Shown here one piece after another: positions 42,992-60,836 of a DNA stretch of 64,000 nucleotides (positions within the stretch are counted from its first letter, which is position 1; every line of letters starts with the position of its first letter). Below the pieces are notes generated by a model that was given only the letters and a program-made list of their open reading frames with translations, did not search any database and had not been told where the DNA came from. The translations under genes and the position numbers were made by a program. The DNA comes from Aminobacter niigataensis. GTDB taxonomy: Bacteria > Pseudomonadota > Alphaproteobacteria > Rhizobiales > Rhizobiaceae. The stretch covers positions 496,001 to 560,000 of the forward strand of contig NZ_JACHOT010000002.1 of the NCBI RefSeq assembly GCF_014200015.1. The letters run 5' to 3'.

Positions 42992-43081
42992 GGAGAGGTG
43001 GCAGAGTGGTCGAATGCACCGCACTCGAAATGCGGCATGGGTGCAAGCCCATCGGGGGTTCGAATCCCTCCCTCTCCGCCA
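42992..43081 (+). tRNA. tRNA-Ser (CGA anticodon)
   Basis: A 90-base sequence including an encoded CCA. The acceptor stem pairs GGAGAGG (42992-42998) with CCTCTCC (43071-43077); discriminator G at 43078; CCA at 43079-43081. The anticodon stem CCGCA/TGCGG holds the 7-base loop CTCGAAA, giving anticodon CGA for UCG codons. The long variable arm (ATGGGTGCAAGCCCAT region) is class II, as expected for serine, and the T-arm has GGGGGTTCGAATCCCTC. tRNA-Ser genes are frequent integration sites, and accessory genes follow. Confidence 0.95.
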
Positions 43082-43595: not shown

Positions 43596-45410
43596 CTAGC
43601 ACCGCACCTGCACAAAATGGTCTTTGCTGACTTCCTTGTAGACGCTCTTAGGCGGCACAAATCCGGGTATCCGGAAGGGGCTTTTGATCTCCTCGACTTC
43701 GGTATTGCGGCGCATGCGGCGGCGGGAGGGGTCTGGGACGGGAACGGCGGCCATCAGCTTCTTGGTATAGGAGTGCTGCGGCGCCTCGAAGACCGCGCTG
43801 CGCGGCCCGATCTCGACGATCTCGCCGAGATACATCACCGCGACGCGATGGCTGACGCGCTCCACGACCGCCATGTCGTGACTGATGAAGAGGTAGGCGA
43901 GCCCGAGGCTTTCCTGAAGCTCCATCAAAAGGTTGCACACTTGCGCCTTGATCGACACGTCAAGCGCGGAGACCGCCTCATCGGCAATGATCACCTTGGG
44001 ATCCAGCATCAGCGCACGGGCTATGCAGATACGCTGACGCTGGCCACCGGAGAATTCGTGCGGCAAACGGCTCATCATGGTCGGCAAAAGGCCCACTCGG
44101 TGCATGAGTGCGGCCGTCTTGTCCCGCGCCTCGGCCTTGCCGCCGAGCTTCTGTTCGAGGAAGGGTTCGGCGATGGAGGCGCCGATCGGAATGCGCGGGT
44201 TGAGGCTGGCGAAGGGATCCTGAAACACCATTTGCACGGCCCGCCTCGCCGACTTTAGCGCTTCTCTGTCGGTGGCACCGACCTCCTGTCCATTGACCAG
44301 CACCGTGCCGGAAAACGGTTTCGTCAACCGTAGGATGGTGCGACCGGTCGTGGACTTGCCGCAGCCGGATTCGCCGACCAGCGACAGCGTTTCGCCCGGC
44401 TGGAGCGAGAAGGAAACATTCTCGACGGCATGAACCGCCCCCGTGACCTTCGAGAACAGTCCGCTGCGCACGGCGAAACGCGTGGTCAGGTTCTTTACCT
44501 CTAGCACCGCCGGTTTGTCCGCAACCGGCGGCGCCGCTTCTCGCTCCGCACCGCGCGAACCCGTCGCGGTGTCGATCAGGCCAAAAGTGGAGGGCAGAGC
44601 ACGGCCCGCCATGGACCCGAGCCTCGGTACGGCCGCGAGAAGCGCGCGCGTGTAGGGATGGCGACCATTGCCGAATATCTCTGCGGTCGGTCCGTCCTCC
44701 ACCACGTCGCCACGCAGCATGACGAGCGTGCGGTCAGCGACTTCCGCCACCACGCCCATGTCGTGGGTGATGAAAAGAACCGCCATGCCGGTTTCTTCCT
44801 GCAGTTCCTTGACGAGGTCGAGGATCTGGCCCTGGATCGTCACATCGAGAGCCGTTGTCGGCTCGTCGGCGATGAGCAGCTTCGGCCGCGTCGCAAGCGC
44901 CATGGCGATCATCACGCGCTGCCGCTGGCCGCCGGAAAGCTTGTGCGGATAGACGTCGTAACGCTCCTTCGCATTGGGAAGGCGCACCTTCTCGAACAGG
45001 CGGATCGTTTCCTGCCGGGCCTCGGCAGAGCCGATGGAAAGATGACCGCGAATGGCTTCGGCGATCTGCTCGCCCACTGTCATCATCGGGTTGAGCGATG
45101 TCATCGGCTCCTGGAAGATCATGGCAATGTCACCCCCGCGGACCTTTCGCATCTCCTGCTCCGGCAGCGCCAGCAAATCACGACCCGCAAGTCGGATTTC
45201 ACCCTCGATGCGGCTGCCGCGCGGTGGCAGGAGCCGCATGACGGACAGCGAGGTCACGCTCTTGCCCGATCCGCTTTCCCCGACGATGGCGAGCGTCTCG
45301 CCCGCCGCGACGTCGAAACCGATATTGCGGACGACCGGCGTCCAGGGCGAATAGATGTCGGGCCGGAACGATGTGGTGAGGTCGCGGACGGATAGAACAG
45401 GCTTCGTCAT
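43596..45410 (-). CDS. Fused peptide-type ABC importer ATP-binding protein (GsiA-like)
   Basis: A 604-residue protein with two complete ATPase halves: the first (about 1-270) has Walker [10 protein letters not shown] and signature LSGGQRQRV; the second (about 310-560) has [18 protein letters not shown] and Walker [13 protein letters not shown]. Each is followed by the oligopeptide-transporter C-terminal motif ([24 protein letters not shown]). This is DppD and DppF fused, the layout of GsiA. It powers the two permeases upstream in the operon. The ATG at 45410 precedes the first domain directly. It is the last gene of the leftward operon. Confidence 0.93.
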
Positions 45411-45457
45411 TCGGGTGGCCCTATCTTCGGTGGGTTGCCATACGGTCCGGAGAACAA

Positions 45458-46321
45458 TCACATCCGGCGTGACATGCGTGGATCGAGAAGATCGCGCAGT
45501 CCGTCGCCCAGCATGTTGACGCTGAGGACGACGAGGGCGAGCGCGAAACCCGGCGCGAACACCGTCCAGGGCGCGCGCGGCAGATACATGCGCGACTGGG
45601 CGATCATGCTTCCCCAGGTCGGTGTTTCAGGCGGCACGCCTGCGCCGAGGAAAGAAAGGGTCGATTCCACGATGATCGCCGAGGCGCAAATATAGGTTGC
45701 CTGCACGATGAGCGGCGGCACTGTCGAAGGCAGGATGTGCCGCACGAGGATGACAGGGAGCCGCGTTCCACCAACCTGCGCCGCCTCGACATAGGGCGCC
45801 TCGCGCACCGAAAGCACTACGGAGCGCACGAGGCGCACGACCCGGGGTATCTCCGGAATGACGATGGCGAGCATGACAACGCCGACCGAGGCGCGCATGA
45901 CGGCCACCAGCGCGATAGCAAGCAGGATGGCGGGAATTGCCATCAGCGCGTCCATAACCCGCATGATGACCGGGTCGGCCTTGCGGAAATAACCCGCGAT
46001 CATGCCGATCACCACGCCAATGGCGATAGAGGAGACTGCAACGACGATGCCGACCGCAAGCGAGACTCGCGCGCCGTGAACAACCCGTGCAAAGACGTCG
46101 CGTCCGAGATGGTCGGTGCCGAGCCAGTAGCGCGCCGAGGGTGACTGGAGCCGCTCGGACGGCATCATCGTTGCAGGATCGCCAGCGAAAAAGGGTGCCA
46201 GCAGCGCGGCAAGCGCGATGGCGGCGAGAACCGTACCGCCGGCAATCATCGTGGGATGGCGGCGCAGGAACCGTGGGATTCCCGCCCGGACGGGGGGAGC
46301 CAACTGAGCGGCATTCGTCAT
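45458..46321 (-). CDS. Peptide-type ABC transporter permease (DppC-like)
   Basis: A 287-residue permease. The N-terminal polar segment and helix (MIAGGTVLAAIALAALLAPF) are followed by SARYWLGTDHLGRDVFARVV, the signature of DppC/OppC proteins, and the ATPase-coupling loop around YVEAAQVGGTRLPVILVRHI. About six helices are predicted. It pairs with the DppB-like permease 16 bases upstream. Confidence 0.93.
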   Translation of the reverse strand: MTNAAQLAPPVRAGIPRFLRRHPTMIAGGTVLAAIALAALLAPFFAGDPATMMPSERLQSPSARYWLGTDHLGRDVFARVVHGARVSLAVGIVVAVSSIAIGVVIGMIAGYFRKADPVIMRVMDALMAIPAILLAIALVAVMRASVGVVMLAIVIPEIPRVVRLVRSVVLSVREAPYVEAAQVGGTRLPVILVRHILPSTVPPLIVQATYICASAIIVESTLSFLGAGVPPETPTWGSMIAQSRMYLPRAPWTVFAPGFALALVVLSVNMLGDGLRDLLDPRMSRRM

Positions 46322-46337
46322 TCTTGGCGACCTTTCG

Positions 46338-47279
46338 TCAGTAGCGGATGCGGGGGTCGATCAGCGTGTAGGACAGATCGGTGGCGAGGTTCACGAACAC
46401 GTAGATGCCGGAGAAGACCAGGATGACGCCCTGGATCACCGGGTAGTCGCGGCGGGCAATGGCATCGACGACGAGGCGGCCGACGCCCGGAATGTTGAAC
46501 ACCGTTTCCGTCACCACCACGCCGCCGATAAGCAGCGCGATGCCGATACCGATCACGGTGGCGATGGGCACCCCGGCATTGCGCAGCGCGTGTTTGACGA
46601 GAATGCGCGGCACGGCCACGCCCTTGGCGCGTGCTGTGCGGATGAAGTCCTCCGACAGGACCTCGAGCATGCTCGTGCGGGTGATGCGGGCGATCAGCGC
46701 GGTGTAGGTCATGCCGAGCGTCACCGAAGGCAATATGAGGTTGCGCGCCCAGGGCCAGATCCCCTCGCTGATCGGCGTGAAGCCCTGTACCGGCAACAGT
46801 TTCCACTCGATGGCGAAAAGCCAGCTCAGCATGTAGCCGAGGACGAAGGCCGGTAGCGAAAACCCCATGACCGAAAACAGCATGAGGATCCGATCGACCG
46901 TCGTGCCGGCCCGGTGCGCGGCTATGACGCCAAAAGCGATGGCGATCGGCACCGCGAAGGCTAGGGTCGCGATCGCCAGCGATACCGTGGCCTCCATGCG
47001 CTGCATGATCAGCTGAGCCACCGGTTCGTTGGAATAGATCGACACGCCGAGGTCGCCTTGCACGACATCGCCCATCCAGCGGAGGAATTGCACCGGCAGG
47101 GGATCGTCAAGGCCGAGCATCTGTCTCAGCTGCGCGATCTGTTCGGGCGTAGCATTGTCGCCGGCAATCACCGCCGCGGGATCGCCGGGCGCGAGATGCA
47201 GCAGCACGAAGACCATGAGGCCGACCAACCCCATCACAATCAGCGTCGCGCCCAGCCGGCGCAGAATATAGATGATCAT
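46338..47279 (-). CDS. Peptide-type ABC transporter permease (DppB-like)
   Basis: A 313-residue permease. MIIYILRRLGATLIVMGLVG and the following FVLLHLAPGDPAAV are typical DppB/OppB openings; the coupling loop reads FIRTARAKGVAVPRILVKHA. About six helices are predicted. It lies 24 bases after the M81 metallopeptidase gene, in one operon with the other transporter parts. Confidence 0.93.
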   Translation of the reverse strand: MIIYILRRLGATLIVMGLVGLMVFVLLHLAPGDPAAVIAGDNATPEQIAQLRQMLGLDDPLPVQFLRWMGDVVQGDLGVSIYSNEPVAQLIMQRMEATVSLAIATLAFAVPIAIAFGVIAAHRAGTTVDRILMLFSVMGFSLPAFVLGYMLSWLFAIEWKLLPVQGFTPISEGIWPWARNLILPSVTLGMTYTALIARITRTSMLEVLSEDFIRTARAKGVAVPRILVKHALRNAGVPIATVIGIGIALLIGGVVVTETVFNIPGVGRLVVDAIARRDYPVIQGVILVFSGIYVFVNLATDLSYTLIDPRIRY

Positions 47280-47303
47280 GCGCGCGTCCTTTTCGATTGA
47301 AAC

Positions 47304-48782
47304 TCAGACCAGCTGTCGCCCCTCGACTTCGCCGTCCAGCGGCCAGATCGGCCGGATCACCTTTTTCCAGGGGTGGCGGCGGTAGTCGGTCGGCAGCAGG
47401 CCGTCGCCGGTCGCGTAGATCACCTCCTCCGAGATCGGGGCGAAGGCGGCGTGGAAATGCTGGTTGGACTTGACCACCAGCAACCGTTCGCCACGCGGGT
47501 CGATGCCGAGATTGGCGAAGAAGTCGATCCCCATCGCCTGACAGCGGTTGGACACCAGCACCGCGCCTACTCCTTCCAGGGTACGAATGCCGACCGCGTC
47601 GCCGAGATCCACCGGAGAGCCTGCGAAGGTCTGCTGCGCGCCGGGCACGCAGGCGAGCACCTCCACCTCCGCATCGATGGGCTGGGCGGAGGCCCAGCAG
47701 GCCTTGCCACCGAAGCGCAGCTTGATCCGCGCGCCCGGACCGGCGTCGAAGGCAAGGCGTACGGCCATCGGATCCCAGATAGGTCCGACCGAGGCGGAGG
47801 AAACGCCGCCCGTGATAAGCAGCCTCAGGAAAGTGGTGTTGTCGGACGGCGCACCGCCACCGGCATTGTCGGAAGTGTCGGCAATCGTCACCGGCTTCGA
47901 AGCGCCGGCCGCAATCTCCAGAGCGCGGGCGACCGCTGCCGACGGTTCGAGGAAGCGTTGAGCGGAGATTTCCTTGATCGCCGCCATTTCCTCGCCGAAT
48001 TCGCGGGCAAGGCGGTCGCCCAGCGGCTTGTTGCCATCGGTGATGACGAGAACGCGCGCACCGTTGTCCGGCACATCACCGGAGGGGAAGCCATGACCGA
48101 GCGAAATTGAAAGGACGCCGTCCTTGCCTTCCAGCGCCATTGCCTTGTCGACGATACCGCGCATGGGCTGCGTCGTCGTCGGATAGGAGGCGATGACGCG
48201 GGTGTCCCACAGTGATTTCACCGGGCGGATCTGCTTGCGGATCGTCGCGAGAACGAGGCTGACGACCTCCTCGCCGCGTTCGACGAAGTCGGTATGCGGA
48301 TACTCCTTGTAGAGGACGATGATGTCGGCGAGTTCGCAACGCTTCACCGTAAAATGGCAGTGAGGATCGAGCTCGACGCCGATCACCGCGTCCGGCCCCG
48401 CTATGCGGCGCACATGTTCGAGAAGGTCGCCCTCGCAATCGTCGTAGCCGTCGGCGACCATCGCGCCGTGCAACGTGAGGATCACGCCGTCCAGGGGCAA
48501 AGCGGCCGACAGTTGCTCGAGGATTTCGGCGCGAATGCGCTCATACGCATCCCGGGTCGCCGTGCCGTTCGGCGTCGACCAGAAACAGGACCCTGGAATG
48601 AATGTGTAGCCCTCGGCTTCGGCACGGCGGCGGGCCACCCAGAAGGCGGCGGTCTGCATGGTGGGCTCGGCGGGATGTTCGCCGGGCCGCCAGGCCTGCT
48701 CGGCGAGAAAGGTCTGGTAGCTGGTCGCCATCGGCGAGAATGTGTTGGCTTCGAGTGACAGACAGGCGGAGAAGATGCGCAT
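47304..48782 (-). CDS. M81 family metallopeptidase (MlrC/microcystinase-like)
   Basis: A 492-residue protein. RIFSACLSLEANTFSP at the N-terminus, LDGVILTLHGAMVADGYDD, VIGVELDPHCHFTV and the C-terminal part (GIDFFANLGIDPRGERLLVVK then SNQHFHAAFAPI) match the M81/MlrC family, named for the last step of microcystin breakdown but widespread in bacteria with unknown peptide-like substrates. It is encoded between the binding-protein gene and the permeases, so it probably acts on what the transporter brings in. The ATG at 48782 begins the conserved fold; 70 upstream codons are not conserved-looking. Confidence 0.85.
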   Translation of the reverse strand: MRIFSACLSLEANTFSPMATSYQTFLAEQAWRPGEHPAEPTMQTAAFWVARRRAEAEGYTFIPGSCFWSTPNGTATRDAYERIRAEILEQLSAALPLDGVILTLHGAMVADGYDDCEGDLLEHVRRIAGPDAVIGVELDPHCHFTVKRCELADIIVLYKEYPHTDFVERGEEVVSLVLATIRKQIRPVKSLWDTRVIASYPTTTQPMRGIVDKAMALEGKDGVLSISLGHGFPSGDVPDNGARVLVITDGNKPLGDRLAREFGEEMAAIKEISAQRFLEPSAAVARALEIAAGASKPVTIADTSDNAGGGAPSDNTTFLRLLITGGVSSASVGPIWDPMAVRLAFDAGPGARIKLRFGGKACWASAQPIDAEVEVLACVPGAQQTFAGSPVDLGDAVGIRTLEGVGAVLVSNRCQAMGIDFFANLGIDPRGERLLVVKSNQHFHAAFAPISEEVIYATGDGLLPTDYRRHPWKKVIRPIWPLDGEVEGRQLV

Positions 48783-48901
48783 AGGCTTAAAACCTTGACT
48801 GGAAAAACTCGGATTCGCTGACAGAATCCGCAGACGCCTTTGGTTAAAACAGGGGGGCTTGTCGGCGGCATGGAACCGGGCGCGGTTCCATGCCGAGCGC
48901 G

Positions 48902-50497
48902 TCAGCCGCGCGAGACGTTCCAGAAGGGCACGAGATCGGGCAGCCCGATCATGCCGTTGACGTCGCTGCGCATGGCCGCCGTGTCGAACCACTGGCCGAG
49001 ATAGACGTGCGGCACGAAATTCCAGGCGTTCTCCTGCATCTCGTGGGCGATCTTCTGGCGCGAGGCGAGATCGGGAGCAGCCGCCCAGGCGTCGCGAAGC
49101 TGTTCATGCTTCGCATCCTCCGGCCATCCGAACCAGCCCTTCTCGCCCGTGGCGGCATGACCCGCCAGCGCGATCGGGTTGTTGTAGGCGCTGCCGGAAG
49201 CATAGGTCATGAAAATGTTCCAGCCGCCTTCGGAAGCCTTGCCCTTGTTGGAGCGGCGGGCGACGATACCGGCCCAGTCTAGGGGCACGAGTTCGACGTT
49301 GACGCCAGCTTGGCGAAGCCATTGGGCGAGGAGCAGCGAAGCATTGCTGAGCACCGGCAAGGTGGTCTGCTGCATGATGACGACAGGCGTCCCGTCATAG
49401 CCCGCTTCCTTGAAGAGGGCCGCGGCCTTCTCGATGTTCTGCCCGCCCTTGAACCAACCGGTATTGGCATCGCTTTCCATCGTCGTGCCGCAGGCGAAGA
49501 GCGAAGCACAACCCTTGTAATGTTTCGGGTCGCCGAAGGTCGCCTGCATGACGGCCGCCTGATCGATGAGGTACAGCATCGCTTGGCGCGCCTTGACGTT
49601 GTTGAAGGGCGGCTGGAGCGTGTTCATGCGCAGCCAGCCCATAGCGCCGGTCTTGTTCAGCACTTCGAGCTTCACCGAACTGTCGCCCTCGAGCTGGCTC
49701 AGCAACTCCGGGGAAATCTTCTCGATGAAGTCGATCTCGCCAGCCTGGAGGGCGGAAACCGCCGTCTGCTCGTCAGGCATGTTCTGGAGGATGATGCGTT
49801 CGAATTTGGCGACCTTGCCGCCGGCGAAACCCGAGGCGGGCTCGGCAACGGCAACGTATTCCGGGTTACGGTCATAGACATACTGCGAGCCGGTACGGGT
49901 CTCGGCGCGGTTGAACATGTAGGGACCGGAACCGACAGCTTCGGTGATCGGTTTGCCCGGATCGGTCGAGGCGTCGGCCTCGCGCATGATAAAGCAAATC
50001 GACGGCGAGGACTTGCCGAGCCAGTCGAGGATCAGCGGATAAGGCTCATTGAGGACGATGGAGAAGGAGGAGTCATCCTTGGCGGAAACGTCGGCCACGC
50101 GCTTGAAGAGATGCTGTCCGGCGCCGTCGCGGGCGCCCCAGCGCTTGATGGAAGCGACCGCGTCGCGGGCCGTGACCGGCTGGCCATCGTGAAATTTCAG
50201 GCCTTTGCGCAGGATGAAGACATAGGTCAGGCCATCGTCGGAAACAGTGTAGTCCGAAACCATCTGCGGCCGGGTGATCGAATCCGCGTCGTGACCGAAC
50301 AGCGTGTCGTAGATCAGCGCGCCGTGATAGGCGGTGATGCTGGCGGTGGTCGCGATCGGGTCGAGCGATGCCAGATCGGCGTGCATGACGCAACGCAACG
50401 TTGTCGACCGGGCAGTGGCAAAAGAGAAACGTGGAGCGGCGATCAGGATGCCGGCAAAAGCGGCGCCCTGCAGAAGCGTGCGGCGAGTAGTTTTCAT
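48902..50497 (-). CDS. Peptide-type ABC transporter substrate-binding protein
   Basis: A 531-residue SBP_bac_5 (DppA-type) protein with a twin-arginine-like signal (KTTRRTLLQGAAFAGILIAA). The mature part contains LRCVMHADLASLDPIATTAS, the family motif KFHDGQPVTARDAVAS, and GSGPYMFNR. It collects the substrate in the periplasm for the importer. The ATG at 50497 has a GGGGGAT site upstream. It is first in the leftward operon and divergent from the amidotransferase-RidA gene. Confidence 0.92.
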   Translation of the reverse strand: MKTTRRTLLQGAAFAGILIAAPRFSFATARSTTLRCVMHADLASLDPIATTASITAYHGALIYDTLFGHDADSITRPQMVSDYTVSDDGLTYVFILRKGLKFHDGQPVTARDAVASIKRWGARDGAGQHLFKRVADVSAKDDSSFSIVLNEPYPLILDWLGKSSPSICFIMREADASTDPGKPITEAVGSGPYMFNRAETRTGSQYVYDRNPEYVAVAEPASGFAGGKVAKFERIILQNMPDEQTAVSALQAGEIDFIEKISPELLSQLEGDSSVKLEVLNKTGAMGWLRMNTLQPPFNNVKARQAMLYLIDQAAVMQATFGDPKHYKGCASLFACGTTMESDANTGWFKGGQNIEKAAALFKEAGYDGTPVVIMQQTTLPVLSNASLLLAQWLRQAGVNVELVPLDWAGIVARRSNKGKASEGGWNIFMTYASGSAYNNPIALAGHAATGEKGWFGWPEDAKHEQLRDAWAAAPDLASRQKIAHEMQENAWNFVPHVYLGQWFDTAAMRSDVNGMIGLPDLVPFWNVSRG

Positions 50498-50805
50498 TTT
50501 TATCCCCCTGGTGATTTGCCGGGGTCCACGGACGCGCCTCCGCAAACCTTGATGAAAAGATGACAGCAGACCGGGATCGAGAATTTTATTTTTCAGCCAT
50601 GTTGTTTTACTTTTCGACGTTTTTTCATCCGCCGGTTGCGGAGAGCGCCAGCTGAAAGCCGAGCAGCGACAATTCTTCAAAGAGAATGGCTTTTTTTCAA
50701 AATTCAATCGCCGACTCTCCTGCCACAGTCTGGGGCTCCAGATGTAACGAACGCGGGAAAGTGGGCCGTTCCCTAGCCGCGTCATTGCCCCGAAAGCACC
50801 CCGGT
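50498..50805. promoter_or_regulatory. Divergent promoter region of the transport/catabolic cluster
   Basis: This 308-base gap drives the leftward transporter operon and the rightward GATase-RidA operon. It is relatively AT-rich at 50580-50640 with homopolymer runs such as TTTTATTTTTC. No clear operator was identified. The GlxA-type AraC protein encoded at 53299 is the natural candidate regulator. Confidence 0.5.
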
Positions 50806-51993
50806 ATGAACGAACGCCTTTTGCGCAAAGACGACATGAAAGCCGCCGCAATCCAGGGGCCCCTCATTCTGATATCGCCCGACATCACAGACAGCGCCGA
50901 GCCGGAATATGCCGTCCGCGCAAATTATGCCGAGGCTATCGCCGAGGCGGGGGGCGCCCCCTTGATCCTGCCCTGCGAAATCGCCTTTCTGGAAACGGCA
51001 CTCGCCGTCGCCGACGGCATCCTGATCGCAGGTGCGAACCCGGGCGCCGATGTGACCGACAAGCGGACCGAATTCGAGAAGGCACTGGTCCAGGGTACGC
51101 TGGCGCGGCAGATTCCGCTGCTGGGCATTTGCCACGGCATGCAGCTCATCGGCGAGCATCTGGGCGGACATGTGGTGCGCGACGATCCCGCACTTCTTGC
51201 CGAAGTGACGCCGCATATCCCGCAGGCTGTGCCGAACGCGGTCGCGCACGAAATCCTGATCGAACCCGGCAGCCATCTCGCCCGCTTGAGCGAGGCAACC
51301 CGCGCAGACGTCAACAGCTTGCACCGCCACGCGCTGGCGGATACCGGTCGCTTCAGGGTCGCGGCACGCGCGCCGGACGGCGTGGTGGAGGCGATTGAGG
51401 CGGACGGTCAAGGCTTCTGCATGGGCGTGCAGTGGCACCCGGAATACCGGCTGACAGAACTCGACCGCCGCATTCTGGCAGGCTTCGTCGGGGAATGTTC
51501 GGCGAGAGCGCGGACGGTGGCGAGAGGCGGTGTCGCCTCGCGGCTTGCCGCGCTCGGGCTTGCCCTTCCCGATGCACCGGTTCCGCCCGGCGCTTTCGTC
51601 GGCGCTGTGCGCCACGGCAATGTCGTCACGGTCTCCGGCCAGGTGCCGTTGAAGGATGGAACCGTGATGACGACTGGCAGGCTCGGCCAGGACGTGTCCC
51701 TCGAAGAGGGGCAGGACTGCGCACGCTACGCGCTGCTTAACGCTCTCGCCCAACTCGGCAAGGTGGCCGGCGGACTGGAGCGCGTCGCCGGCTTCGTGCG
51801 CCTCGCGGGCTATGTCGCCGCCGCCCCGGATTTTACCCGCCACGGGGCTGTGATCGACGGCGCCTCGGAACTCTTGCGGACGCTTTTCCCGGAAAACTGG
51901 GCCCATGCCCGCGTTGCGCTCGGCGTTTCCTCGCTACCGCGCGGCGTTCCGGTCGAGATTGAACTCTCCGCTGTGCTGAAGGAGGGGGAATGA
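50806..51993 (+). CDS. Class I glutamine amidotransferase (PuuD-like) fused to RidA domain
   Basis: A 395-residue two-domain protein. Residues about 15-235 form a peptidase C26/PuuD-type amidotransferase with the nucleophile Cys109 in GICHGMQLIG and the His211/Glu213 pair in QWHPEYR; relatives hydrolyse gamma-glutamyl amides such as gamma-glutamyl-GABA. Residues about 243-393 form a RidA domain, with the imine-binding arginine (Arg369) in HARVALGVSSLP and the ending PVEIELSAVL. RidA hydrolyses reactive imines, which fits the flavin oxidase encoded next. ATG 50836 is an alternative start; neither has a strong ribosome site. Confidence 0.88.
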   Translation: MNERLLRKDDMKAAAIQGPLILISPDITDSAEPEYAVRANYAEAIAEAGGAPLILPCEIAFLETALAVADGILIAGANPGADVTDKRTEFEKALVQGTLARQIPLLGICHGMQLIGEHLGGHVVRDDPALLAEVTPHIPQAVPNAVAHEILIEPGSHLARLSEATRADVNSLHRHALADTGRFRVAARAPDGVVEAIEADGQGFCMGVQWHPEYRLTELDRRILAGFVGECSARARTVARGGVASRLAALGLALPDAPVPPGAFVGAVRHGNVVTVSGQVPLKDGTVMTTGRLGQDVSLEEGQDCARYALLNALAQLGKVAGGLERVAGFVRLAGYVAAAPDFTRHGAVIDGASELLRTLFPENWAHARVALGVSSLPRGVPVEIELSAVLKEGE

Positions 51994-51994
51994 A

Positions 51995-53218
51995 ATGGCG
52001 AAGGTTGCCATCATCGGGGCGGGCGTCGTCGGAACCGCCTCCGCCTATATGCTGTGCAAGGCTGGCCTGGACGTCACGCTGATCGACCGCAACCCCGGTC
52101 CGGCGCAGGGTGCAAGCCGCGCCAACGGCGCCCAGCTTTCCTACGCCTATGGCGATGCGCTGGCCTCGCCTTCCTTCCTCGCCCACATGCCGGAAATCCT
52201 TCTGAAGCGTGATCCCGCCTATCGCGTGCGGCTTCAGGCCGATCCCGAATTCCTGATCTGGGGTCTCCGCTTCCTCTTCAACAGCCTGCAATCACGCTTC
52301 ATCGCCAACACACGATATCTGCTGCAAATGGCGGCTGAAACAAGCGATCTGCTCGGGGATGTGCTGAAGGAATTCGACCTGTCCTTCGACTACCAATCCT
52401 CCGGCAAGATGATCCTCTATTCGACCGCCGCTGCTTGCCAGGCGACTGCCGGCACGCGCCGGCTCAAGCAGTCGATGGGTATCCGGCAGGAAGTGCTCGA
52501 CCGCTCCGGGGCAACCGCCATCGAACCCGCGCTGGCCCATTACCCGGACGAGATCGCGCGGGTGATCTACAGCGAAGGCGACGCCGCCGGCAGGCCGGAT
52601 GTCTTCTGCACCACATTCATCGAACGACTTCGCGAGCGCTACGGCCTCAAGACCATTTTCGGTGAGGAGGTCGAGAAAATCCTCAGCCATGCCGGCCGCG
52701 TGAGCGGGCTCGCATTCCGCTCCCGCGAGCCGCTGGCCTGCGATCTCGCTGTCGCCGCCTCCGGGTGCTCGACGGAACTGCTACCCTGGCGCGACCGCCT
52801 GCCAGGCGCGCTGTGGCCGGTACAGGGATATTCCATTAGCGCGCCAGCCACCGAGAAGGCGATGCGCGTATCGATCACGGACCTCCAGCGCAAGATCGTC
52901 TTCGCGCGGCTCGGAAATACAATACGGGCGGCAGGGCTGGCCGACATAGGGGCGCGACCTTACCACTTCAATGGCGAACGATTCGAGAGCTTCCGCTCCG
53001 CTGCCGTGGAAGCCTTCGGGCAGAGTTTCGCCCATTCCAGCAACGCCGACCTCAACGCCTGGTCGGGTGTACGCCCGTGCACACCCTCCTCGCGACCGCT
53101 CATCCGGCCCGGCAGCCTGAAGGGTCTCTATCTCAATCTCGGCCACGGCACACTTGGCTGGACACTCTGCCTCGGCTCGGCCAAGCGGCTGGCCACCGTC
53201 ATCAAGGAAACCAAATAA
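51995..53218 (+). CDS. FAD-dependent amine/D-amino-acid oxidoreductase (DadA-like)
   Basis: A 407-residue flavoprotein. AKVAIIGAGVVGTASAYMLC is the FAD site; GASRANGAQLSYAYGDALAS parallels the ETSFANSG motif of DadA; the C-terminal WSGVRPCTPSSRPLIRPGS and NLGHGTLGWTLCLGSAKRL close the fold. It should oxidise an amine or D-amino acid to an imine. It begins one base after the GATase-RidA stop codon, so the two are translated together, and a RidA domain to hydrolyse the imine is supplied by that neighbour. The true substrate is unknown. Confidence 0.87.
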   Translation: MAKVAIIGAGVVGTASAYMLCKAGLDVTLIDRNPGPAQGASRANGAQLSYAYGDALASPSFLAHMPEILLKRDPAYRVRLQADPEFLIWGLRFLFNSLQSRFIANTRYLLQMAAETSDLLGDVLKEFDLSFDYQSSGKMILYSTAAACQATAGTRRLKQSMGIRQEVLDRSGATAIEPALAHYPDEIARVIYSEGDAAGRPDVFCTTFIERLRERYGLKTIFGEEVEKILSHAGRVSGLAFRSREPLACDLAVAASGCSTELLPWRDRLPGALWPVQGYSISAPATEKAMRVSITDLQRKIVFARLGNTIRAAGLADIGARPYHFNGERFESFRSAAVEAFGQSFAHSSNADLNAWSGVRPCTPSSRPLIRPGSLKGLYLNLGHGTLGWTLCLGSAKRLATVIKETK

Positions 53219-53298
53219 AGCCGTTAAGTATAGAATGTTTCAACATTCGCCATCTTCTATAAAAACTCCGTAGACATAGTAATCAGGAGATCGGCGGG

Positions 53299-54360
53299 AT
53301 GACGGAAGACGGAGTTGCGGTGGGGCCGGCTGGGACGGAGTATGTCCGATGGCTGGACGGGCTCTGGACGGAAAGGCTTCTTTCCGTGCAAGACCGCAAA
53401 CCGGATATTTCAGTCGGCATCCTGCTGTGGCCCACCTTTCCGATGATGTCGCTGACGGGCATCATCGAGCCACTCCGTCACGCAGCGGATTTCGGCGACA
53501 ACTCCCGTCCCCTCCACTGCCGCTGGTCGATCATGGGCAAGCCGGATTATGCAGCCGTCGCCAGTTGCGGCATTCGCGTGCAGGCGGACTCGCCCTACAT
53601 CAATCCGACGGATTTTGACTACGTCATCGTTGTCGGAGGCCTTTTGCCACGCCTGCGAACCGCCCCTTCCACCCACCGCGATTACATCCGCGTCGCGGCT
53701 TCGGCCGGCGTAACGATCGTCGGCGTCTGCACCGGCTCGTTCATCCTCGCACAAGAGGGACTGCTGGTTGGAAGGAAGGCCGCCATCCACCCCTATCACC
53801 GGGACGATTTTCAGGTCGCCTTCCCACGCCAGCCCCTGTCGACCCGCGACGATTACCTGATCGAGAACGGCCGGGTGACCGTGCCCGGCGGCATTTCCAT
53901 TTTTTCGCTGATGACCGAACTCATCCGCAACCATTGCGGACCGGACCGCGCCGCCAAAGCCGTCTACCAGCTATCGCTGACGGATCAGAAAAGCATGAGC
54001 GCCTTCGATCAGGAACGGGCATCATCGTTCCGCCATGTTGGAGATGCCCGTGTCCAGCGGGCTGTCGTTTTCATTGAGAGCCGCAAGGGCCGCGACGTCT
54101 CCCCGGAAATGGTGGCTGCCTCCGTCGGTCTCTCTCCCCGACAGTTCGCACGGTTGTTTCAGGATCATATCGGCATGACGCCTAAACACTTCATCCTGGA
54201 AACACGTCTCCGGTACGTGCATTTTTTGCTTGAGAACAGCGTCCTTCCCATTACCGCCATTGCCTTCGAGACGGGCTTTGCCGACTCGGCGCACCTGGCG
54301 ACCGCTTTTCGTAAGAAGTACAACACGTCGCCGAGCGAGTTCCGTCACCGCCGAAGTTGA
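53299..54360 (+). CDS. GlxA-type AraC family regulator (DJ-1/PfpI domain)
   Basis: A 353-residue protein. Residues about 35-210 form a DJ-1/PfpI-like sensor domain (VGILLWPTFPMMSLTGIIEP; GVCTGSFILAQEGLLVGRKA), and the C-terminal 100 residues are an AraC double helix-turn-helix (VAASVGLSPRQFARLFQDHI; PITAIAFETGFADSAHLATA). This layout is shared by GlxA-family regulators such as GbdR, CdhR and ArgR, which sense amines and amino acids and activate their catabolic genes. It closes the rightward operon or follows it closely (80 bases), so it is the likely activator of the cluster. Confidence 0.9.
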   Translation: MTEDGVAVGPAGTEYVRWLDGLWTERLLSVQDRKPDISVGILLWPTFPMMSLTGIIEPLRHAADFGDNSRPLHCRWSIMGKPDYAAVASCGIRVQADSPYINPTDFDYVIVVGGLLPRLRTAPSTHRDYIRVAASAGVTIVGVCTGSFILAQEGLLVGRKAAIHPYHRDDFQVAFPRQPLSTRDDYLIENGRVTVPGGISIFSLMTELIRNHCGPDRAAKAVYQLSLTDQKSMSAFDQERASSFRHVGDARVQRAVVFIESRKGRDVSPEMVAASVGLSPRQFARLFQDHIGMTPKHFILETRLRYVHFLLENSVLPITAIAFETGFADSAHLATAFRKKYNTSPSEFRHRRS

Positions 54361-54398
54361 GCGGAGACCGTGACGGTGGGGTGGGATCACACACCCCG

Positions 54399-56198
54399 TC
54401 ATGCGTGCTCGGCGATCACCGCGAGGAAGGCGGGGCCGTAGCGGTCGAGCTTGGCTTCGCCGACACCGGGCACGTTCGCCATCTCGGCGCGCGACGCGGG
54501 TCGCACTGCTGCAAGCTCGATCAAAGTCTTGTCGTGGAAAATCACATAGGGTGGCACGTTCTGCGTGCGCGCTATGTCCGTGCGCTTGCGCCGCAGGGCC
54601 TGGAACAGGTCATGGTCCGCATCGGAGACAGAGGACTGTGCCGTGCTGAGCGCAACCTTGCCGCGTTTGGCGCGCGTTGGCGCCGGTACGCGCAGCATCA
54701 GCGCCGGCTTGTCGCGCAAGAAGTCGCGGCCGGCAGGTGCGATCGATAGGCCGCCATGACCTGTGAGGTCGACGTCGATGAGGCGCAGCGCGATGAGCTG
54801 GCGCAGGATCGCCCGCCACGTGCGGTTGTCGTGCTCGGTGCCGATGCCGAAGGTGGAGATGCGGTCATGGCCGAACTGGGCGATGCGCTCGTTGTCGACG
54901 CCCAGCAGCACGTCGACAACATAGGCTTGCCCGAAACGCTCGCCGGTGCGGTAGATGCACGACAGCGCCTTTTGCGCCGCAATGGCGCCGTCGAACAATT
55001 TTGGCGGCTCCGCGCAGGTGTCGCAATTGCCGCATGGTTCGCTATGGTCACCGAAATAAGACAGCAGAACCTGTCGGCGGCAGCTTGCCGTCTCGGCCAG
55101 CCCCAGCAGCGCATCGAGTTTCTGCCGCTCCATGCGCTTGCGCTGGTCGGGCGCCTCCGATTCCTCGATGAAGCGGCTGCGCAGCGCGATGTCGTCGTAG
55201 CCGTAAAGCATCAGCGTATCGGACGGCAGGCCGTCGCGTCCGGCACGCCCAGTCTCCTGATAATAGGCCTCGATGCTGCCCGGCAGGTCGATATGGGCAA
55301 CGAAGCGCACGTCCGGCTTGTCGATGCCCATGCCGAAGGCGACGGTGGCGACCATGATGACCGCCTCGCCATGCTGGAAGCGCATCTGGTTGGCTTCGCG
55401 CGCCGCCTTGTCCATGCCGGCGTGGTAGGCCAGCGCATCGTAGCCGAGGCCCTGAAGCCAGGCGGCGGTTTCCTCGGTCCGGCGTTTCGACAGGCAGTAG
55501 ACGATCCCGCTCTCGCCTTCATAGCGCTTGAGGAACTCCTTGAGCTGGGCGCGCGGATTGTCCTTTTCCTCGATGGCGTAGCGAATGTTGGGCCGGTCGA
55601 AACCGGCGATGAAGGCGTCGGTCTCGTCGATTTCGAGGTGCGACAGGATTTCCGCGCGGGTCGGCTCGTCCGCAGTGGCCGTCAGCGCCATGCGCGGGGT
55701 GCCGGCAAAGCGCGAAACGACAGCGTCGAGCTGGCGATAGGAAGGACGGAAATCGTGCCCCCACTGCGACAGGCAATGCGCCTCGTCGATGGCGATCAGC
55801 GACAGCTTCACGCCGTCCAGCATCTCCAGCACATCAGGCCGCAGCAAGGTTTCGGGTGAGACATAGAGGAGGTCGAGCGCACCAGTGCGGATATCGTGCC
55901 ACAGGCTGCGGCGCCCGTCGGGTGAAAGGTCGGAGTTGAGCCCCGCCGCCCGCACCCCAGCTTGGCGCAGTGCCGACACCTGATCGGCCATCAGCGCCAG
56001 CAGCGGCGAAACGATGAGCCCCATGCCGGGACGGACGATTGCGGGGATCTGGTAGCACAACGACTTACCGCCGCCAGTCGGCATCAGCACGAAGGCGTTG
56101 TTGCCGGCGATGACATGCTCGACGATCCGCGCCTGCGGTCCCCTGAACGCATCATAGCCATAAATGGTCTTGAGAATTTCGAGGGCGGTGGCGGTCAT
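54399..56198 (-). CDS. recQ: ATP-dependent DNA helicase RecQ
   Basis: A 599-residue helicase. Walker A is in LMPTGGGKSLCYQIP, the DExH box in IDEAHCLSQWGHDFRPSYR, and the helicase C-domain in VRFVAHIDLPGSIEAYYQE. Zinc-binding cysteines lie at CRRQVLLSYFGDHSEPCGNC, followed by the winged-helix domain and a C-terminal HRDC domain (VPGVGEAKLDRYGPAF). RecQ unwinds DNA in recombination repair. It marks the return to ordinary chromosome after the accessory region. The ATG at 56198 was chosen over an in-frame TTG 12 bases earlier; neither has a strong ribosome site. Confidence 0.96.
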   Translation of the reverse strand: MTATALEILKTIYGYDAFRGPQARIVEHVIAGNNAFVLMPTGGGKSLCYQIPAIVRPGMGLIVSPLLALMADQVSALRQAGVRAAGLNSDLSPDGRRSLWHDIRTGALDLLYVSPETLLRPDVLEMLDGVKLSLIAIDEAHCLSQWGHDFRPSYRQLDAVVSRFAGTPRMALTATADEPTRAEILSHLEIDETDAFIAGFDRPNIRYAIEEKDNPRAQLKEFLKRYEGESGIVYCLSKRRTEETAAWLQGLGYDALAYHAGMDKAAREANQMRFQHGEAVIMVATVAFGMGIDKPDVRFVAHIDLPGSIEAYYQETGRAGRDGLPSDTLMLYGYDDIALRSRFIEESEAPDQRKRMERQKLDALLGLAETASCRRQVLLSYFGDHSEPCGNCDTCAEPPKLFDGAIAAQKALSCIYRTGERFGQAYVVDVLLGVDNERIAQFGHDRISTFGIGTEHDNRTWRAILRQLIALRLIDVDLTGHGGLSIAPAGRDFLRDKPALMLRVPAPTRAKRGKVALSTAQSSVSDADHDLFQALRRKRTDIARTQNVPPYVIFHDKTLIELAAVRPASRAEMANVPGVGEAKLDRYGPAFLAVIAEHA

Positions 56199-56311
56199 CG
56201 GTGGCTGCAACGGAGAATCATGGAAACGTCCTTCATAGCAGCTTCGCCGTGTCAGCGATCGTTGATGCGCCTTTCTGTCGGGCTACTTGCAACAGTTCGT
56301 CGGTTTGCTCC

Positions 56312-58300: not shown

Positions 58301-60836
<2,536 letters not shown>

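Follow-up and report, generated by a model that had tools for sequence, protein, structure and literature searches.

Layout of the locus

We analyzed positions 43596-54360 of a 64,000-nucleotide stretch of the Aminobacter niigataensis genome (here, the window), in which two operons diverge from a single intergenic region. The original prediction described one operon as encoding a peptide-type importer with an embedded M81 (MlrC-like) metallopeptidase and the other as encoding a fusion of a C26 amidotransferase to RidA, a DadA-like flavoprotein, and a GlxA-type regulator, and it proposed that all of these genes form one undescribed pathway for uptake and catabolism. Open frames at the positions listed below bear out both operons, and Pfam and NCBIfam agree on the families. 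The starts of the binding protein, M81, and the fusion were placed by reading, inside longer mechanical open frames. The features are as follows (ABC, ATP-binding cassette; FAD, flavin adenine dinucleotide).

43596-45461, minus strand: fused DppD/DppF-type ABC ATPase (two Pfam ABC_tran domains and oligo_HPY; top NCBIfam model GsiA, 793 bits against a cutoff of 1077)
45458-46321, minus strand: DppC-type permease (Pfam BPD_transp_1 and OppC_N)
46338-47279, minus strand: DppB-type permease (Pfam BPD_transp_1 and its N-terminal domain)
47304-48782, minus strand: M81 (MlrC-like) metallopeptidase, embedded in the importer operon (PF07364, 273.3 bits; PF07171, 155.9 bits)
48902-50497, minus strand: family-5 solute-binding protein, SBP_bac_5 (PF00496; 350.6 bits to PDB 8vdx)
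50579-50614, minus strand: putative GlxA operator/promoter element facing the importer-M81 operon, the weaker of two (second matrix score, 18.7 bits)
50672-50707, plus strand: putative GlxA operator/promoter element facing the C26-Rid operon (top matrix score, 47.5 bits)
50836-51993, plus strand: class-I/C26 amidotransferase-like gamma-glutamyl hydrolase fused to a Rid1-type imine deaminase (PF07722, 130.8 bits; PF14588, 64.1 bits; PF01042, 50.5 bits)
51995-53218, plus strand: DadA-like FAD amino acid dehydrogenase (PF01266, 168.7 bits; NCBIfam D-amino acid dehydrogenase subfamily, 302.8 bits against a cutoff of 383, which it misses)
53299-54360, plus strand: GlxA-type AraC-family regulator with DJ-1/PfpI and AraC domains (PF12833, PF01965)

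A C26-Rid fusion and a DadA-like flavoprotein

C26 and Rid domains occupy one open frame. Across the six fusions of alignment A1, Cys100, His202, and Glu204 of the C26 half and Arg360 of the Rid half are invariant (residues numbered from base 50833). The fusion-bearing genome G1096 and all five of the separate-gene units in the comparison also have the C26 Cys and H-P-E motifs, and seven separate Rid proteins examined carry an arginine at the like place; this arginine was matched to RidA Arg105 by motif, without an aligned RidA. The solved proteins nearest the Rid half are PDB 3d01 and then 9bk9 (PA0814), and the available text of PMC5619798 places PA0814 in the Rid1 group. The predicted fusion stands as a C26-Rid fusion in one frame; its Rid half is nearest to the Rid1 type and is not RidA proper.

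Because a single base parts the stop of the fusion from the start of the DadA-like gene, translational coupling of the two, as predicted, is plausible. The PDB profile of the flavoprotein matched broadly, chiefly amino acid and sarcosine oxidases. From its likeness to DadA alone, we infer that the substrate may be D-configured.

The core recurs in other loci

A tblastn search of the fusion against plasmids returned 543 records, 12 of which matched at least 80% of the query in a single place, a threshold that already demands C26 together with Rid. DadA follows C26-Rid in all 12 (10 fetched and scanned, two identified through adjacent tblastn places). Two of the fetched loci are irregular: DadA is split over two frames in L084, and C26 is short in L086. 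Besides pTiCFBP4996, core loci lie on other plasmids typed as conjugative.

Four of the 10 fetched loci combine the fusion with a divergent GlxA gene, on plasmids of Sinorhizobium RAC02, Neorhizobium galegae, Rhizobium SL42, and Agrobacterium leguminum (a Ti plasmid), and their GlxA proteins are 70-79% identical to that of the window by BLAST. Amino-acid ABC transporter genes lie between in the three that are annotated, and the matching ATPase alone was seen in RAC02. Two whole genomes, G023 and G1096, have the same plan by matches to GlxA, the ATPase, the fusion, and DadA; the G1096 binding protein is of amino-acid type (NCBIfam, below cutoff). The plan extends to G594, a genome of another order, in which C26 and Rid are separate genes and GlxA is 44% identical. 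In total, the combination of C26, Rid, and DadA with a divergent GlxA and ABC transporter genes of amino-acid type is found in seven other loci, one of which has C26 and Rid as two genes.

In the other six fetched plasmid loci, C26 and Rid are two genes, DadA is present, and there is no GlxA match; an M20 peptidase is annotated upstream in five of the six, and the sixth record is unannotated. On two Sinorhizobium plasmids (L082 and L083), the M20-C26-Rid-DadA unit lies, by annotation, downstream of large genes with beta-ketoacyl synthase-like and acyltransferase domains.

As a baseline, we took the 37 loci, out of a set of 38, that have a C26 relative (some on short contigs); within 4 kilobases (kb), DadA was found in one, Rid in none, GlxA in none, and M81 in one. 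The M81 case is a Planctomycetaceae contig (L029:6794-10672) with M81 (31% identical) and C26 (32% identical) less than 4 kb apart and no Rid or DadA match. On a Burkholderiales contig (L003:7192-10781), relatives of C26 and DadA adjoin; by eye, an ornithine cyclodeaminase/mu-crystallin-like frame follows them and a frame resembling an Lrp-type regulator precedes them.

Identity to five of the relatives is 61-64% for the fusion and only 44-47% for DadA. The G1096 DadA is 67% identical to that of the window, and a tree joins the two (support 100/99). We considered whether the divergence of DadA was due to a change of importer and dropped this idea, as in G1096 this type of DadA stands with an amino-acid-type transporter.

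A putative operator in the divergent promoter

Five other core loci have regulators that are 70-78% identical to the GlxA protein of the window, and these five relatives share a conserved 36-base block in the intergenic region that separates GlxA from the transporter. We built an operator matrix from the promoters of the five relatives alone and scored 127,930 positions in the window. Both of the highest matches fall in the divergent promoter, one toward each operon; the third match, at 58711, scores 15.0 bits, and 20 block shuffles reached 8.6 bits at best. Held out from the matrix, G1096 scores 56.2 bits at its own divergent promoter, and G932, a genome with a C26 relative beside GlxA, scores 14.9 bits.

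A pattern drawn from the relatives only, with up to three mismatches, has a single match in the A. niigataensis genome, at 50672-50707. A pattern drawn up with knowledge of both sites has two matches in the genome, one per site, and with up to two mismatches it has two matches in the window against 0.15 expected. The second site is weaker evidence than the first. The position of the element suggests that GlxA may bind it, or it may instead be the promoter. Because putative operator matches face both operons, shared control of the divergent operons, to which the original prediction assigned one promoter region, is likely.

The importer and the M81 peptidase

Within the importer operon, the DppC-type permease gene overlaps the ATPase gene by 4 bases, and the fused ATPase clears the cutoffs of some paralogous transporter ATPase models (e.g., NikD, NikE, and OppF in NCBIfam). 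The binding protein has a twin-arginine-like signal (MKTTRRTLLQ...), judged by eye from the start assigned by reading. Homology searches with the importer do not discriminate, as many Dpp binding proteins and permeases give similar scores.

The M81 protein matches microcystinase C (PDB 7ylq) with 354.6 bits. The available text of PMC12474180 lists Glu56, His150, Asp184, His186, and His208 of MlrC around the zinc, and in the 7ylq alignment the window protein has all five with equal spacing, as E11, H105, D139, H141, and H163 (positions counted from motif starts). The Pfam domains and, for M81, these residues uphold the prediction of a peptide-type importer with an embedded M81 gene.

We fetched 20 M81 neighborhoods, drawn from 54 genomes with M81 matches, our own genome included. 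A Dpp transporter lies within the stretch in three of them, with permeases 56-58% identical in L125 and L129 and 42-46% in L136. Of four of the best plasmid matches to M81, two (Sinorhizobium fredii GR64 and Sinorhizobium meliloti 1132) are separated by insertion elements from a Dpp operon, at distances of about 4.5 and 9 kb, and the remaining two have none nearby. In Sinorhizobium garamanticum (L149), a Dpp operon directly follows an M81 gene (27% identical), and the plasmid with this pair also carries a core locus, about 60 kb away. Pairing of M81 with this kind of importer thus recurs, though not usually.

Several other gene associations were seen in these plasmid loci. On Phyllobacterium and Phaeobacter plasmids (L142 and L143), M81 lies near D-threonine-aldolase-like (D-TA) and RidA family genes and sugar or TRAP transporters. 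A CapA-family gene follows the Dpp operon in four of six fetched rhizobial plasmid loci (L144, L145, L146, and L148); no such gene is listed for L147 or for the part of L149 that was seen. Upstream of the operon, L144 and L146 have an M20 gene, and L144, L146, and L148 have an aspartate aminotransferase family gene.

In Rhizobium leguminosarum Gr 12/7 (L085), the core with its M20 gene is followed by a second M20 gene and a Dpp importer whose permeases are 58-59% identical to those of the window. In the window itself, the importer and M81 occupy the place of the relatives' amino-acid-type transporter. Because G1096 has an amino-acid-type transporter and yet a DadA 67% identical to ours, the simplest reading of the sequences is that an amino acid importer was probably replaced here by a peptide-type importer and M81, with the enzymes kept.

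An alternative is that the Dpp-M81 operon is an independent neighbor that landed beside the core and shares with it only the intervening region, with no common pathway. M81 and Dpp genes do adjoin or lie close to one another in loci that lack the core, namely L125, L129, L136, L141, and L149 (in L149 with the 27% identical M81), and the core is found without M81. This alternative sits poorly with the second best operator match of the window, which faces the Dpp-M81 operon, and with the missing amino-acid-type transporter, which all seven relatives carry. We consider it quite improbable.

Distribution and possible horizontal gain

We counted the full-length fusion in two genomes at the level of the order (297 sampled), three in the family (161), one in the genus (10), two in the phylum sample (398), and one in the class sample (385). 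The single class genome is our own; in that sample, G594 has the separate parts, and G423 and G426 have C26 alone. The samples overlap (G000, our own genome, is in every one and G023 in several), and for the order, class, and phylum samples at most 4-6 candidates were scored per genome. In all eight fetched congeners (of nine, G1158 excluded), similarity to the window ends just past recQ, at 54391-54405, and only short ATPase matches, in two congeners, lie beyond that point. Because its occurrence is patchy and includes plasmids, the comparisons suggest that this putatively catabolic locus was acquired horizontally.

A tRNA-Ser gene (cga) lies at 42992-43081, about 0.5 kb before the locus. No same-strand repeat of this tRNA of at least 12 bases, as an attachment repeat, was found between 43082 and 58000, and the recQ-adjacent stretches of the eight congeners contain no tRNA.

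A proposed pathway and its alternatives

Gene content, catalytic residues, conservation of the core, placement of the operator, and patchy occurrence are supported by sequence; the regulator's binding and ligand, the substrate and its stereochemistry, and the order of steps are our interpretation. We tentatively favor, at somewhat less than an even chance, a horizontally acquired locus of GlxA-switched operons that imports a conjugate, cleaves it with M81, and breaks down the resulting gamma-amide amino acid with DadA, Rid1, and C26. In this scheme, the GlxA-type regulator would sense the substrate or a breakdown product and turn on both operons from the shared promoter region. The Dpp-type importer would take up a peptide-like or amide-linked conjugate, and M81 would cleave its amide bond inside the cell to leave a glutamine-like, possibly D-configured amino acid with a gamma-amide still in place. 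The DadA-like flavoprotein would convert the alpha-amine to an imine, which the Rid1 domain would hydrolyze to a 2-oxo acid; C26 would remove the gamma-amide by hydrolysis, with an end point near 2-oxoglutarate. Alternatively, C26 might act before DadA. Because the Rid and C26 domains are fused, their steps may be consecutive, and this weakly favors the order DadA, Rid, C26 over C26, DadA, Rid, the order of the original prediction. A gamma-glutamyl amine, the substrate type named in the original prediction, is a possibility, one candidate among several.

The oxidative steps have precedent. According to the available text of PMC9714295 and PMC5619798, FAD amino acid dehydrogenases yield imines that Rid proteins hydrolyze, and that of PMC4433059 describes clustering of Rid genes with FAD amine oxidase genes. 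In the part of PMC5619798 available, the Rid1 protein PA0814 reduces the semicarbazone signal from 18 to 1 (in the units of the paper) for the imine derived from glutamine, also lowers the signals of the Leu, Phe, and Met imines, and is inactive on iminoarginine. These Rid1 data would permit a glutamine-type substrate and lean away from an arginine-type one.

We also considered a more specific idea, which we regard as improbable: that the C26-Rid1 fusion is bifunctional, with DadA oxidizing a gamma-amide amino acid, Rid1 making a 2-oxoglutaramate-type intermediate that would otherwise cyclize, and C26 serving as its amidase, in a mobile module with one GlxA operator and an importer and amide-cleaving peptidase that are exchanged according to the conjugate. 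We know of no report of 2-oxoglutaramate-type amidase chemistry for C26 enzymes.

Several observations weigh against the favored pathway. Among the matches listed (for the flavoprotein, the best 25 of 35), no core enzyme attains the cutoff of an NCBIfam equivalog that names a substrate, and in the available text of PMC5619798 Rid1 proteins take several imines, not that of glutamine alone. The second operator is far weaker than the first (18.7 against 47.5 bits), and the unrelated site at 58711 scores 15.0 bits; G594, with its 44% identical regulator, has no clear site (9.7 bits, against 12.4 elsewhere in its locus). Of the C26 relatives from the phylum search, none of the 12 fetched places has Rid or DadA beside it; one of the 12, G932, has GlxA and an amino-acid-type ATPase, and its contig ends 2.8 kb on. 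No other locus examined has M81 next to the core (none of the 10 plasmid loci, nor G023, G594, or G1096), and none of the 20 M81 neighborhoods has a relative of C26, Rid, DadA, or GlxA at an E value of 1e-10. The importer likeness of L085 is ordinary, with a permease 60-80% identical in 38 of 4079 plasmid records and many binding proteins scoring alike; because such permease likeness is common on plasmids, the L085 arrangement is a parallel and not proof of orthology. Within the loci examined, the core has an importer with M81 beside it only in the window. The predicted conservation of the gene set applies to the C26-Rid-DadA core with GlxA, found in seven other loci, and not to M81, found beside the core only here; likewise, of the pathway as a whole, the conserved core and likely shared control were retained, and the full set as a conserved pathway was not.

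We weighed two other catabolic roles. One is use of an opine-type compound, an N-substituted glutamine or asparagine, whose secondary amine DadA would split oxidatively, with Rid clearing the imine and C26 taking the amide. The presence of the module on Ti plasmid pTiCFBP4996 and on other plasmids typed as conjugative fits such a role, as does the RidA-family gene that neighbors ooxA in the annotation of an octopine-type Ti plasmid; so does AgaA (6hlx), which among solved proteins with a specific name matches the binding protein best, although the match is weak at 100.4 bits and hardly exceeds YliB at 96.1 bits. The top NCBIfam models for the flavoprotein, however, are D-amino acid dehydrogenases, with no opine oxidase model among the best 25 of 35 (a comparison made by models, not directly with OoxA/OoxB), and no such gene set appears in the titles and abstract openings of the opine literature, among the matches listed; the available text of a mannopine paper offers no information on enzymes. 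We rate an opine substrate as unlikely. On the octopine-type Ti plasmid (L089:45496-50000), the RidA-family gene overlaps the end of ooxA, and a hypothetical gene lies between the RidA and ornithine cyclodeaminase genes.

The other role is plain use of D-glutamine or D-glutamate, with C26 as a D-glutaminase, DadA oxidizing D-glutamate, Rid1 hydrolyzing iminoglutarate, and Dpp-M81 supplying peptides that contain D-amino acids, such as wall fragments. The gene set dguABC is reportedly another DadA-Rid pairing; the dgu genes are said to be under LysR control, which the GlxA-type regulator here does not resemble. The flavoprotein also falls below the D-amino acid dehydrogenase cutoff (302.8 against 383 bits). 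Points in favor are the amino-acid ABC transporter genes of the relatives (annotated; NCBIfam matches below cutoff) and the known DadA-Rid pairing dadA-dadY of Pseudomonas aeruginosa (PMC9714295, in the part available). We give this role a low probability.

The favored pathway places vaguely annotated families (M81, C26, Rid1, DadA-like, and GlxA) in one unit with a predicted operator, which makes a coherent target for a function so far unexplained, and relatives of this unit occur on plasmids of root-nodule bacteria and on one Ti plasmid. If found, the substrate would identify a compound consumed in the rhizosphere, and a Rid1 protein could gain a physiological role.

Comparison with known systems

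The individual parts of the locus are known, and we found no description of the combination in the literature examined. As the original prediction had supposed, no named pathway with this set appears in open-access titles and abstract openings, among the matches listed, a source from which subscription papers are mostly absent.

Like microcystinase C (MlrC), the M81 protein has the same five residues around zinc, spacing included, but it scores 359.6 bits against an NCBIfam MlrC cutoff of 999. The MlrC system uses MlrD, and the window has the Dpp importer in that place; no other mlr-type gene (mlrA/B/D-type partners) was found by Pfam among the nine proteins scanned at 43596-56210. Microcystin degradation was rejected on the low MlrC score and the lack of partner genes among these nine proteins.

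The C26 half belongs to the same family as PuuD, the gamma-glutamyl-gamma-aminobutyrate hydrolase of the Puu putrescine pathway (91.1 bits to PDB 6vtv), and differs from it in scoring 88.9 bits against an NCBIfam cutoff of 266 and in being fused to Rid. The Puu polyamine pathway was ruled out because the PuuD cutoff is missed and the locus scan found neither a gamma-glutamylpolyamine synthetase nor an aldehyde dehydrogenase among the same nine proteins. Choline/betaine control of the GbdR type was also ruled out, the regulator scoring 150.5 bits against an NCBIfam GbdR cutoff of 480.

By annotation only, the opine oxidase clusters of Ti plasmids have in common with the locus a flavoprotein gene with Rid and importer genes nearby, on rhizobial plasmids; the locus differs in its best flavoprotein models and in its C26 and M81 genes, and among the 10 plasmid loci fetched, L081 alone lies on a plasmid called Ti. 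The remaining likeness is to pairs of DadA and Rid, such as P. aeruginosa dadA-dadY and DauA with Rid in vitro, which, in the available text of PMC9714295 and PMC5619798, likewise join an FAD dehydrogenase to an imine-hydrolyzing Rid protein. The window differs from these pairs in that its Rid is of Rid1 type and fused to C26, and in its GlxA-type regulator, peptide-type importer, and M81 metallopeptidase.

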